In this document: piece by piece, positions 7,177 through 19,277 of the stretch | How the letters are laid out: each line of letters opens with the position of its first letter | Position numbering within the stretch: the first letter of the stretch is position 1 | NCBI GenBank assembly: GCA_015494075.1 | Contig: WGBX01000124.1 | Location: 1 to 47,401 of the forward strand | Source of the DNA: Flavobacteriaceae bacterium | GTDB taxonomy: Bacteria > Bacteroidota > Bacteroidia > Flavobacteriales > Flavobacteriaceae | Length of the DNA stretch: 47,401 bases | Direction: 5' to 3' | Position numbers and translations under genes: made by a program | The notes under the pieces: model-generated | What the model saw: the letters and a program-made list of their open reading frames with translations, nothing else | Databases searched by the model: none | What the model was told of the DNA's origin: nothing

Positions 7177-7704
7177 TTATCTTTTTGGTGTTGATTCAGC
7201 AATTTTCTGAGGATAGGCCTCTTTAACTGCTTTTTGTTCTTCTTCGGTTAATTTGTCAAAAGGCTTACCATATTTTTGGCGTGCATAGCGATTTCTGATT
7301 TCATTATATGCAGCGATGAGCTCATTATAAACAGAAATATACTTTTTATAAGAAGTTTCACGCGAATGCTTAATACTAATAACTGCTTTTTGCGGACTAT
7401 CAGATGATTTCGGATCCTTACCATTATTAGTAATGAAATCAATAGCTATTTTTTTGACATCTTTGACATCTGCCGGTTCTTCTTCAATAAGCATTTGGTC
7501 TTGTCCGTTAATAACAATTTCCAAAACATTTTTCTTTTTAATAACCGGCGGCTTTTCAGTTTGCTCGGAATCTGGCGGTGGTAATTTTCTTCTGATTCCA
7601 TAGTTACTTTCCATAGTGGTCGTAACCAAGAAGAAAATTAATAGCAAAAAAGCTATGTCTGCCATTGACCCGGCATTTATTTCTTGTAATTTTCTTTTAG
7701 CCAT
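7177..7704 (-). CDS. exbD: ExbD/TolR family biopolymer transporter
   Basis: INAGSMADIAFLLLIFFLVTTTM: ExbD TM helix with the conserved Asp. Confidence 0.9.
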   Translation of the reverse strand: MAKRKLQEINAGSMADIAFLLLIFFLVTTTMESNYGIRRKLPPPDSEQTEKPPVIKKKNVLEIVINGQDQMLIEEEPADVKDVKKIAIDFITNNGKDPKSSDSPQKAVISIKHSRETSYKKYISVYNELIAAYNEIRNRYARQKYGKPFDKLTEEEQKAVKEAYPQKIAESTPKR

Positions 7705-7734
7705 TGTTAATAGTTTAAATTAGTCTCTCTTTAG

Positions 7735-8214
7735 TTATTCGGCTTCTTCCTCATATACTTCTTCTGTAGAAGCACTGCCACCACTACCTAATGCAGATAA
7801 TACAGGAGATAAAAACATTAACAAAACAGCAATAGTTCCTAATATATAAAAAGTGTATAATCCGGTATCTACCCAATTAGATGTTTTGGCATCTACATTA
7901 ATATTTGGATAATAATGAACCGGTTGGTTTGACGCTAAAACATATTTTGAAAAAGCAACAATACCTAAAAATACAAGTGTAACAATAGCTGTTTGTTTTA
8001 ATTTTTGCGGGTGTGAAAGTAAATCTTTCAACCATACCCAAATAGAAGCAATAACTGCAAAGGCTAATACCAAATAAGTAAAATTTAGCATGGCATCAAT
8101 AGCAGTATCAGCATTATCCGGGTCTTTCATAATCATAATGAAAAGCACGAAGCTAATAATAGCTATGGCTCCCACAATGATTTTTGTGATGAGTTTTAGA
8201 GTTTTATTTTCCAT
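7735..8214 (-). CDS. Hypothetical multi-TM membrane protein within the ExbB/ExbD cluster
   Basis: 159 aa with several hydrophobic helices and an acidic C-terminus. Same strand and tightly packed with exbB and exbD. Confidence 0.75.
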   Translation of the reverse strand: MENKTLKLITKIIVGAIAIISFVLFIMIMKDPDNADTAIDAMLNFTYLVLAFAVIASIWVWLKDLLSHPQKLKQTAIVTLVFLGIVAFSKYVLASNQPVHYYPNINVDAKTSNWVDTGLYTFYILGTIAVLLMFLSPVLSALGSGGSASTEEVYEEEAE

Positions 8215-8224
8215 TTGTAAAATC

Positions 8225-9001
8225 TTATTTTTTGTTGTGACTATATTTTACCAATAAATCGACTAATGAGATAGAAGCATCTTCCATTTTGTTTACAATG
8301 CTGTCGATTTTTGCGATGATAAAATTATAGAAAACTTGTAAGATGATAGCCACAATCAAACCAAATACGGTTGTTAATAAAGCGACTTTAATACCACCAG
8401 CTACCAATGAAGGTTGCATATCACCGGCTGCTTCAATTTTATCAAAGGCTTGAATCATACCGATAACTGTTCCCATAAATCCAAACATAGGCGCAACAGC
8501 AATAAATAAAGCTAACCAAGATACATTTTTTTCTAATTGTCCTACTTGAACATTACCATAAGATACTACGGCTTTTTCAGCTGCATCAACACCTTCGTCC
8601 ATACGTTCTAAACCTTCATAAAAGATAGAAGCGATCGGGCCTTTTTTATTTCTTAACAATTCTTTGGCTTCTTCTACGCCTCCTTCATCTAAAGCTTGCT
8701 CTACTTCTTCTAATAATTTATCAGTATTAGTATCAGCGAAAGATAAATATATAATTCTTTCAATAGCTACTGCTAAACCTAAGATTAAAGTTAAAAGTAC
8801 AATACCCATAAATGCAGGGCCACCTTCAACAAAACGTTTTTTTAATTCTTGATGAAAGGAAGTAGTCGTTTGGGCATCATCAGCTTTTTTAGTTTTTTCT
8901 ACTTTTTTTTCCGTTTGCGCTTTGGTTTCTTGCGCCTGAATGTTAGTTGTTACAAAAAATAACATTCCTACAATAGCTAGGATCGTAAATACTTTTTTCA
9001 T
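8225..9001 (-). CDS. exbB: MotA/TolQ/ExbB proton channel family protein
   Basis: GLAVAIERIIYLSFA, VAPMFGFMGTVIGMIQAFDKIE, VALLTTVFGLIVAIILQVFYN, preceded by a signal-peptide-like N-terminus. Confidence 0.9.
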   Translation of the reverse strand: MKKVFTILAIVGMLFFVTTNIQAQETKAQTEKKVEKTKKADDAQTTTSFHQELKKRFVEGGPAFMGIVLLTLILGLAVAIERIIYLSFADTNTDKLLEEVEQALDEGGVEEAKELLRNKKGPIASIFYEGLERMDEGVDAAEKAVVSYGNVQVGQLEKNVSWLALFIAVAPMFGFMGTVIGMIQAFDKIEAAGDMQPSLVAGGIKVALLTTVFGLIVAIILQVFYNFIIAKIDSIVNKMEDASISLVDLLVKYSHNKK

Positions 9002-16537: not shown

Positions 16538-16563
16538 AAGCCATTGCAATTGCAATGGCTTTT
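16538..16563. terminator. Palindromic terminator
   Basis: AGCCATTGCA-AT-TGCAATGGCT with A-rich and T-rich flanks, between convergently useful gene ends. Confidence 0.65.
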
Positions 16564-16584
16564 ATAATAGAAAAAAATTAAATA

Positions 16585-16938
16585 TCAATCAAATAATTCT
16601 AGAACATTCGGAATAGCTATATTTATTAGTACTCCTAAACTCACTTGTGATGTATCTACAATTGAACCCATAAAATTATTATTATTTAGGTTTATAATTA
16701 CTACCATAGAATTTGCATCTAGATCAGCAATTATAAATTTACTTAATTTTGGGAATCCTAAATTTTCTAATGATTTTTCAAAACTATTAGATATTTTAGC
16801 AAAAAGTGCCGTCGCTTTTGGATTAGGATTGTAACTTTCTAATGATAGACCAGTTTTTTTATCCCAAATATCACAAGCTAATAAAGCATCTTCTAAATCA
16901 TTTTTATAAGTTTCAATAACTTTTTTATAATTATTCAT
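16585..16938 (-). CDS. Roadblock/LC7-like domain protein
   Basis: Short alpha/beta protein with LEDALLACDIWDKKTGLSLESYNPNPKATALF...FIIADLDANSMVVIINL...IVDTSQVSLGVLINIAIPNVLELF, resembling bacterial roadblock domains. Confidence 0.6.
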   Translation of the reverse strand: MNNYKKVIETYKNDLEDALLACDIWDKKTGLSLESYNPNPKATALFAKISNSFEKSLENLGFPKLSKFIIADLDANSMVVIINLNNNNFMGSIVDTSQVSLGVLINIAIPNVLELFD

Positions 16939-16949
16939 AGTAAAAATAT

Positions 16950-17933
16950 TTAAATTTTATCAACTGTTAAGGTTACTAGTGTTTGATTGAGTAATTGATA
17001 AGCTATTTCACCAAAGGTAATCGGGCCTTTGATATTATTAATTTTTTGGCCTTCCAGTCCACCGTATAAATAATTTAAAATACAGTTACAAGAAAATTCA
17101 TTATCGACCTCATAGTCTAAGGTTTTAATTTCAAAACGTTCAAGATAATTTTCAATAGGCTTGGCAAATTTATAAACTTTACTTTCAAAAACCGGAGCAT
17201 AAAAACTTACTAAACCATTTTCAATATCTACTTCTTTAATACTTACATTAATAGAAGCCCCTGAATAATCAGCTATCAATGGTAATTTTATATCTATATT
17301 GTTTTGATGTATATATTCTGCCAAATTAGTTTCTTTACCGTCCACTAAGCAATTTAAAACATCAAAGCTGTCAAAATAAAATTCGATAGAAGGACTTTCT
17401 TCATCTCTTTCAAAAATATTGACAATATCAAGTTGTGCAAAATAATCTTCGGGCAGTTTTATATGTATGGCAACGGCTTTGTCTATGTATTCTTCATCTA
17501 ACTTACCATTAAAAGTTTTAGGAACATCATCCGAATTTAAATTAATACCCGAAACCCAACCAACAACAGGATTATTATATAAGCCTTCCATATTTTCAGC
17601 TTTAAGGGCAAAGTCGTGATGTATTTTCTGAAAGGCGGGAATAATTAACAATGTATAGCCGTTATTATAAGAATTCGGAATTATTTGATCAATTGAAGTT
17701 TCATCATAAGTTTTAATTTTAAAATCAATTATATTTTGATCAAAGAAATTAACAAATATCTTATTTTGATCAAATTTTCCGAGATCTTCGTCCATAAAAT
17801 AAGGAATTGTTCCGGCAATCCAATTACCTTTTGGTAATTTTTTCAAAACTTTTTCATCACCTGACAAACTCATTAATCTCCCTTCATTGATAAAGTCTAT
17901 AACTTCATCAACTGCATATAATTTATTGTTCAT
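16950..17933 (-). CDS. Conserved uncharacterised protein (resembles a family I recall as DUF6976; possibly FIST-like)
   Basis: 327 aa ORF, N-terminus MNNKLYAVDEVIDFINEGRLMSLSGDEKVLKKLPKGNWIAGTIPYFM, C-terminal CNCILNYLYGGLEGQKINNIKGPITFGEIAYQLLNQTLVTL. Family assignment is from memory and unverified. Confidence 0.55.
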   Translation of the reverse strand: MNNKLYAVDEVIDFINEGRLMSLSGDEKVLKKLPKGNWIAGTIPYFMDEDLGKFDQNKIFVNFFDQNIIDFKIKTYDETSIDQIIPNSYNNGYTLLIIPAFQKIHHDFALKAENMEGLYNNPVVGWVSGINLNSDDVPKTFNGKLDEEYIDKAVAIHIKLPEDYFAQLDIVNIFERDEESPSIEFYFDSFDVLNCLVDGKETNLAEYIHQNNIDIKLPLIADYSGASINVSIKEVDIENGLVSFYAPVFESKVYKFAKPIENYLERFEIKTLDYEVDNEFSCNCILNYLYGGLEGQKINNIKGPITFGEIAYQLLNQTLVTLTVDKI

Positions 17934-17942
17934 ATCCCTTCT

Positions 17943-18617
17943 TTAATTTCTAAAAAAATTATCAATAAAAGAACCAAAAAAAGATTTCTTTTTAACCACT
18001 TTTCTCTTTTTATTTTTGATAGCTTTAAGCCGTTGCATTTCAGCTTGTTTTTTTTCTTGTGAGATAAGTTCTTTTTTATTCAGGTTATGACTCTCTGTTT
18101 TTTCTATTGCTTTTTTTTGTCTTTCTAATGCCAGCCTTTCCTTAATTGCTTTTTCGGCTTCTAATCTAATTCTTTCTGCCTCAAGTCTTCCTTTTTCTGC
18201 CTCTTGTTTAGCTCTTTCTTCTTGTTTTCTTATCTGTTCTATAATGGCACGTTTTTTCCTTTCAGTATCTAATTTTTTTTGTTTTTCAGCTTCTTCCATT
18301 ATATACTGCCTATCGTCGTGCTTAAATTTCGCAATAGGCTGTTGTTTATTTTCTTGAGTAGGTGCTTCTTGTAAATAATCTCCAAAAATATTGGCTAAAT
18401 CGGTATCCATATTTTTTGCCTTGATAAATTTTTTACACAAAGCATAAATATTATCGACTTCTTCTTCAAGTGAAAATTTGCCTGTTTTTATCTGGTTACG
18501 GGCTTGAGTAACTTTCATTTGAAAAAAATAATTTTTGAGCGGCACATTTATGGTGCCATTTAATAAGTCTCGCCATTCCTGTCTATCTTTGGACGGTAAA
18601 GGGTAATGCTTTTCCAT
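17943..18617 (-). CDS. Charged coiled-coil protein
   Basis: Long Glu/Lys/Arg/Ala-rich heptad-like stretch (EEAEKQKKLDTERKKRAIIEQIRKQEERAKQEAEKGRLEAERIRLEAEKAIKERLALERQKKAIEK) and a basic tail. Start MEKHYPLPSKD chosen over 18644. Confidence 0.65.
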   Translation of the reverse strand: MEKHYPLPSKDRQEWRDLLNGTINVPLKNYFFQMKVTQARNQIKTGKFSLEEEVDNIYALCKKFIKAKNMDTDLANIFGDYLQEAPTQENKQQPIAKFKHDDRQYIMEEAEKQKKLDTERKKRAIIEQIRKQEERAKQEAEKGRLEAERIRLEAEKAIKERLALERQKKAIEKTESHNLNKKELISQEKKQAEMQRLKAIKNKKRKVVKKKSFFGSFIDNFFRN

Positions 18618-18641
18618 TTTAATCATTTTTGGTTTCAAACA

Positions 18642-18649
18642 CAAAATTA
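18642..18649 (-). promoter_or_regulatory. Putative -7 box (TAATTTTG) for the coiled-coil/roadblock unit
   Basis: TAnnTTTG on the minus strand, about 25 nt upstream of the 18617 start. Confidence 0.4.
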
Positions 18650-18713: not shown

Positions 18714-19277
18714 TTATTCGTCCTCGTTACCATCTTTTATTTGCGTGGTTTTAATCGGGTTATAGACAGCCTGTCTAAAACCTTCTTGTAATTGGTTCAT
18801 TTTTTCTATTACACCATTAGGATCTTTGAGAAAATACAAGTCTTTGAGGTAATTCATATCTTTATACATTACCCACGTGCGCCCTTCGGCATCTTTATAT
18901 ATTAAAACTTTCATTGGCAACTCGATGCCAACTTCAGGATTTTCTTGCATTAAGTAACCGCCCATTTTAGGATTACCAAATATCATTAGATAAACCGGTC
19001 TTAACTCAACATTTGCATTTTTAGCGGCTGTTTCGTGATCAACAATGTGAGGATAATACATTCCTTTGTCTTCCAAATATGATTTTAATTTCCGGTAGGT
19101 TTTTTTAGGACCATAATCACTGCGAAACAATACAAATTTGGTTTTGCTATGATCTGCTTTTCGCTCAACGGCTTCTACTTTTGGTTTTTCAGGTTTTGAT
19201 TCCGTATTTTTTTTTACTGTTTTTTTGCAAGCGCTCATCATTAAGAGCAAACTCAATACTAAACTGATTTTTTTCAT
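18714..19277 (-). CDS. DUF302 domain lipoprotein
   Basis: Lipobox-like LLMMSAC; ELRPVYLMIFGNPKMGGYLMQENPEVGIELPMKVLIYKDAEGRTWVMYKDMNYL is DUF302-like. Confidence 0.8.
   Translation of the reverse strand: MKKISLVLSLLLMMSACKKTVKKNTESKPEKPKVEAVERKADHSKTKFVLFRSDYGPKKTYRKLKSYLEDKGMYYPHIVDHETAAKNANVELRPVYLMIFGNPKMGGYLMQENPEVGIELPMKVLIYKDAEGRTWVMYKDMNYLKDLYFLKDPNGVIEKMNQLQEGFRQAVYNPIKTTQIKDGNEDE

Follow-up and report, generated by a model that had tools for sequence, protein, structure and literature searches.

Three consecutive open reading frames on the minus strand of a flavobacterial contig raise two questions, namely whether they form a single unit and what a unit of this composition could do. 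The stretch of DNA analysed, hereafter the window, is the 47,401-nucleotide contig C124 of a 2.16-Mb metagenome-assembled genome (MAG) of ~95% completeness, whose close relatives are metagenome-assembled Flavobacteriales and Flavobacteriaceae. An earlier note on this DNA had read the three genes as a self-contained unit and as a candidate for an undescribed system, and we take up its claims where the evidence bears on them. All features of the unit described below lie on the minus strand.

A conserved three-gene operon

The three reading frames span positions 18644/18617-17943 (gene 1), 17933-16950 (gene 2, 327 aa) and 16938-16585 (gene 3, 117 aa) and are separated by gaps of 9 and 11 nt. For gene 1, the ATG at 18617, which gives a protein of 224 aa (17943-18617), is a more likely start than the TTG at 18644, since homologues start near there. 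That the three genes form a real unit, as the earlier note had supposed, follows from these short gaps, from purifying selection, from a hairpin terminator and from the same gene order, which recurs in nine other Flavobacteriales-type loci. In comparison with the nearest relative (L021), dN/dS is ~0.16 for gene 1, ~0.06 for gene 2 and ~0.04 for gene 3. The hairpin, AAAGCCATTGC-AATT-GCAATGGCTTT (16538-16563), already described in the note as a palindromic terminator, is perfect over its 26 nt, including a 4-nt loop, and is followed by a T-rich stretch; at -16.3 kcal/mol (z -5.23), it was matched by none of the shuffled sequences. It serves as the intrinsic terminator of the unit and could act in both directions. 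A near-identical hairpin stands 3' of gene 3 in L021, and hairpins are found there in three further relatives too (L023, L025 and L027), but these are different ones.

The proposed opposite boundary, a promoter-like TAATTTTG box (18642-18649), fared less well. It is present, yet the pattern TAnnTTTG occurs in the window at chance frequency (87 observed vs 85 expected) and no -33-like TTG was found 5' of it; it is therefore not evidence for the unit, and we rejected it as a sign of autonomy. Also rejected were a phage or viral origin, as no relative was found in viral contigs, and an anti-phage defence system, as PADLOC models matched none of the three proteins at E ≤ 1. Upstream of the unit, on the same strand, lies a DUF302 lipoprotein-like gene (18714-19277), which adjoins it only in the nearest relatives.

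Gene 2, a DUF6976 protein

The product of gene 2, which the note had considered of unclear family, is a full-length member of a named one, PF22396 (DUF6976), whose profile it matches over residues 7-324 (E 4.6e-126, 420.5 bits vs a cutoff of 27). No paper naming DUF6976 was found in the literature searched, and the family has no described function. Its relatives occupy at least 565 loci in a one-genome-per-species collection, and the 80 best of these were analysed.

Several lines of evidence relate DUF6976 to the FIST proteins. The Pfam FIST_C profile does not match the gene 2 protein itself, and it gives weak matches in 17 of 81 DUF6976 members at E ≤ 1, the best at E 0.0013 and none convincing. 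With hhalign, a collinear alignment of the DUF6976 family to full-length FIST proteins extends across 271 columns (E 3e-4, though at a probability of only 40%), and the FIST motif residues SC(VGR)...GEI...NxT are present in gene 2. A Foldseek search with the AlphaFold2 model of gene 2 (pLDDT 92.6) against 350,542 PDB chains returned FBXO22, the human FIST protein, as the top four matches (E 3.7e-3 to 1.9e-2, TM ~0.2-0.4, with a poor global rmsd); the DUF6976 profile found no convincing match among PDB sequences. On this combined profile, motif and fold evidence, we take gene 2 to be a distant FIST relative, though not a member by Pfam's rule, in agreement with the earlier suggestion of a possible FIST-like sensor. 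The term 'undescribed system' is too strong, because gene 2 belongs to a named family related to FIST sensors.

Residues C282, C284 and E309 of gene 2 are invariant in 81 sequences, N316 and Q317 are found in 80 of the 81, and the relative L011 has C282 replaced. Because the C-terminal motifs SC..., GEI and NQT correspond, C282 and E309 match Cys326 and Glu362 in the CVGR and GEI motifs of FBXO22, a functional pair that combines an aldehyde-reactive cysteine, Cys326, with a required glutamate, Glu362 (PMC13316043). By analogy, C282, C284 and E309 could form a reactive cysteine site, and gene 2 would then be a thiol/electrophile or redox sensor. Their invariance and the correspondence of motifs favour this reading, but the reactivity of FBXO22 was demonstrated with synthetic degraders (PMC13316043), conserved cysteines could be structural or metal-binding, and C282 is lost in L011, so that we regard it as doubtful.

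Gene 1 and the partner domain of DUF6976

In gene 1, the earlier note had seen a charged coiled-coil protein. The charge is evident in a K/E-rich segment (residues 106-209; 17991-18302) in which 53% of the residues are charged and whose length differs among homologues; the coiled coil is unproven, as a crude test gave no significant heptad periodicity for residues 78-209 (p about 0.3), and the N-terminus is instead a conserved, predicted helical domain of ~77 residues (18387-18617), for which Pfam has no family. Seventeen short proteins whose genes lie just 5' of DUF6976 in other bacteria served to build a profile, which detected 90 copies of this domain; of the 80 best loci, 74 have at least one copy immediately 5' of DUF6976 and in the same orientation. 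Judged from its sequence, this part of gene 1 is an undescribed domain, new here, and a near-universal partner of DUF6976.

The 80 loci span Bacteroidota, Ignavibacteria, Beta- and Gammaproteobacteria, Clostridia, Selenomonadaceae, Anaerolineae, Spirochaetes, Opitutales and Calditrichia, as well as Bdellovibrio-type and Anaeromyxobacter MAGs. Among 297 Bacteroidota genomes, confident matches to the partner domain (E ≤ 3.3e-15) were found in the same five as DUF6976, and the two are adjacent in each of them; at least three of the five (G064, G104 and G184) are outside the set from which the profile was built. The domain stands alone in most phyla (~72-88 aa), but Reinekea and a Cellvibrionaceae MAG have it as three tandem copies, L074 has it fused to DUF6976, and in many proteobacteria it makes up the C-terminus of a longer protein. 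The longer partner protein of L093 (7227-7973) carries a cysteine-rich ribbon with matches, below cutoff, to the ISL3-transposase zinc ribbon and HTH; it and the partner proteins of L039, L042, L048 and L054 appear to be domesticated ISL3-transposase N-termini joined to the partner domain, with zinc ligands that seem mostly lost.

At the other end of gene 1, the C-terminal tail KVVKKKSFFGSFIDNFFRN (17946-18002) shows an aromatic/basic pattern that recurs in most homologues and is possibly an amphipathic membrane anchor.

Gene 3 and the question of a GTPase

According to its AlphaFold2 model (pLDDT 88.8, pTM 0.81), the product of gene 3 has the roadblock/LC7 fold, with the topology α-β-β-α-β-β-β-α, as its designation as roadblock-like in the earlier note had anticipated. 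In Foldseek, the model's 50 top-ranking PDB hits are either roadblock proteins or complexes with roadblock-type domains, Ragulator/LAMTOR among them (probability 1.00, E from about 1e-6 to 2e-5). It is the fold, not the sequence, that carries this assignment: Pfam Robl_LC7 matches none of 10 gene 3 homologues, nor anything in the window genome at E ≤ 1, and the similarity of the gene 3 profile to canonical roadblock proteins is weak.

The folds nearest to gene 3 are those of archaeal Roadblock3 and MglB, which would fit an MglA/MglB- or conservon-like module in which gene 3 regulates a small GTPase encoded elsewhere; conservons indeed combine a sensor kinase, a roadblock protein and a Ras-like GTPase (PMC13343842; PMC4316618). 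The absence of a GTPase from the window, pointed out in the note, extends further, however. No kinase, cyclase or GTPase was found in or directly beside the operon, none of the MglA-like kind was recognised next to the homologous loci, and an Arf-family search of the ~95% complete window genome gave four matches only, none of them MglA-sized. Because all four lie in ORFs of 344-531 aa, which are the sizes of housekeeping GTPases, an MglA partner elsewhere in the genome was rejected and the G-protein reading is weakened to the point where we consider it quite improbable.

Distribution and genomic neighbourhoods

The note had looked to co-occurrence of the three genes in other genomes, and this was found in part: they are together in nine other loci, but not across phyla, which only the gene 1 domain and gene 2 span. 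The window and these nine loci (L021-L029) have DUF6976, a gene 1 with the charged extension and usually the aromatic/basic tail, and the roadblock gene, and they form one clade (SH-aLRT 99). The next relatives (L030-L033) have the bare domain only, and no roadblock gene was found there (L030 ends soon after DUF6976). Since the charged extension and the roadblock gene are both confined to one Flavobacteriales-type clade, a marine lineage, they appear to have been added together, and late, to an ancient pair.

The family of gene 3 is itself narrowly distributed. Among the 297 Bacteroidota genomes it was found in the window genome only, and 11 of the 13 genomes of the window's genus have a member. 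Most members in the genus sit in a second locus (L114, 7064-8262, and L115-L121), where one gene encodes a protein that begins MWNFFKK..., contains a basic stretch and has a roadblock-like region at its C-terminus, and the adjacent gene encodes a 124-aa roadblock paralogue of gene 3; this locus was not found in the window genome. An existing roadblock module likely joined the ancient sensor pair, and the aromatic/basic ends in both roadblock loci suggest membrane contact. One could also argue, since gene 3 is limited to one clade and the genus has paralogues of it at a separate locus, that the roadblock gene adjoins genes 1 and 2 by chance and has no functional link to them. This is very improbable given that the three genes are kept in 9 of 9 related loci despite changed flanks, with two copies in one genome, that the gene 1 extension shares the distribution of gene 3, and that the genes are under purifying selection.

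In L117 (5415-7270), a canonical Robl_LC7 protein and a protoglobin are encoded in a four-gene cluster with two more roadblock-like proteins, an arrangement that suggests a roadblock module for gas sensing. In an Anaeromyxobacter MAG (L095, 614-1624), a single protein with a roadblock-like N-terminus and a C-terminal partner domain adjoins DUF6976; as an independent roadblock link it is suggestive only, because Robl_LC7 matches it at no better than E 0.051 and neither the PDB nor the gene 3 profile yielded a match.

The six loci without the partner domain form one clade (SH-aLRT 100). In four of them, a bacteriohemerythrin is encoded directly upstream of DUF6976 or, in L036, fused to it (7530-8993). 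A run of several hemerythrin-like genes lies 5' of DUF6976 in L041 (5729-8978). Also in four of the six, the directly downstream gene ran into or contained a SpoIIE-type phosphatase or homologue, assigned by Pfam in L034, L035 and L037 and by clustering in L036, two of them with GAF domains. Elsewhere, DUF6976 is followed by a GAF-histidine kinase (L067), an overlapping response regulator (L093) or a GGDEF protein (L058), and such neighbours point to signalling.

These neighbourhoods also bear on a NosP-type gas or haem sensor, in which DUF6976 would bind a haem or iron cofactor and sense NO or O2 and the roadblock scaffold would relay the signal. Among FIST proteins, NosP and CdpA are sensors of NO or haem (PMC12570481; PMC8846402), a hemerythrin adjoins or is fused to DUF6976 in one clade, and in G004 the second roadblock locus, with its related roadblock pair, includes a canonical Robl_LC7 protein and a protoglobin. 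Yet hemerythrin itself could bind the gas, and no DUF6976 was seen in the protoglobin locus. Moreover, because the histidines of DUF6976 are not invariant (H105 in 65 and H157 in 64 of 81 sequences), haem binding is without support from a universal His ligand, the invariant residues being Cys-x-Cys and Glu. On balance, we find a sensor of this type unlikely.

A proposed signalling module

With moderate confidence, we propose that the operon encodes a cytoplasmic signalling module made of a FIST-like sensor and its partner, here placed on a roadblock scaffold. The analysis establishes the fold or family of genes 2 and 3, the conserved association between gene 2 and the gene 1 domain, and the joint distribution of the extension and the roadblock gene; the contacts between the proteins, the membrane association, the ligand and the output of the module are inferred. 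Gene 2, as a sensor of the FIST superfamily, would bind or react with a small ligand at a pocket of the invariant SC-x-C and GEI motifs, and the N-terminal domain of gene 1 would be its dedicated binding partner, relaying the state of the sensor to its own fusion partner. In this lineage, gene 1 would have gained its charged helical extension and aromatic/basic tail together with the arrival of the roadblock gene in the operon. The gene 3 protein most likely forms a dimer and would dock on this extension, thereby tethering the sensor complex to the inner membrane or offering it to an output protein. The hemerythrin clade, which does without the partner domain, is a point against this explanation.

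More tentatively, DUF6976 and its upstream helical domain may be a previously undescribed, widespread two-protein sensor core in the FIST superfamily that is coupled to lineage-specific outputs, including a SpoIIE phosphatase, a histidine kinase, a diguanylate cyclase and an ISL3-transposase-derived protein, and in this lineage to a membrane-associated roadblock scaffold that works without a GTPase. For a family that is without described function despite its many loci, the constant upstream partner domain provides a concrete handle. If the FIST link holds, an anonymous bacterial family would be tied both to bacterial haem/NO sensors and to the cysteine pocket of human FBXO22. In its Flavobacteriales form, the module would exemplify a roadblock protein acting as a scaffold without a GTPase.

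Comparison with known systems

Gene 2 resembles FIST proteins (Pfam FIST/FIST_C; e.g., NosP with NosK/NahK) in its weak collinear profile match and its C-terminal SC...GEI...NQT motifs, and DUF6976 resembles them as a putative stand-alone sensor that in relatives is sometimes found beside signalling proteins. It differs from them in that gene 2 has no convincing FIST_C match, is shorter and has a second cysteine, and in that DUF6976 has a near-obligate partner domain and its copy in the window has no adjoining histidine kinase; within PF22396, gene 2 is a full-length member. No paper with both 'FIST domain' and 'roadblock' was found in the literature searched. The neighbourhoods of Group 1 Rup GTPases include a predicted coiled-coil cytoplasmic protein, proteins with unknown domains and a signalling output (PMC4316618); unlike the unit in the window, they contain a GTPase, and the available part of that paper reports no DUF6976 in them. 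The model of gene 3, finally, is like the roadblock/LC7 proteins (MglB, conservon CvnB, LAMTOR/Ragulator) in its topology and best Foldseek matches, but the protein differs from them in having no Pfam sequence match and no MglA-sized GTPase, and in being coupled to a FIST-like sensor.
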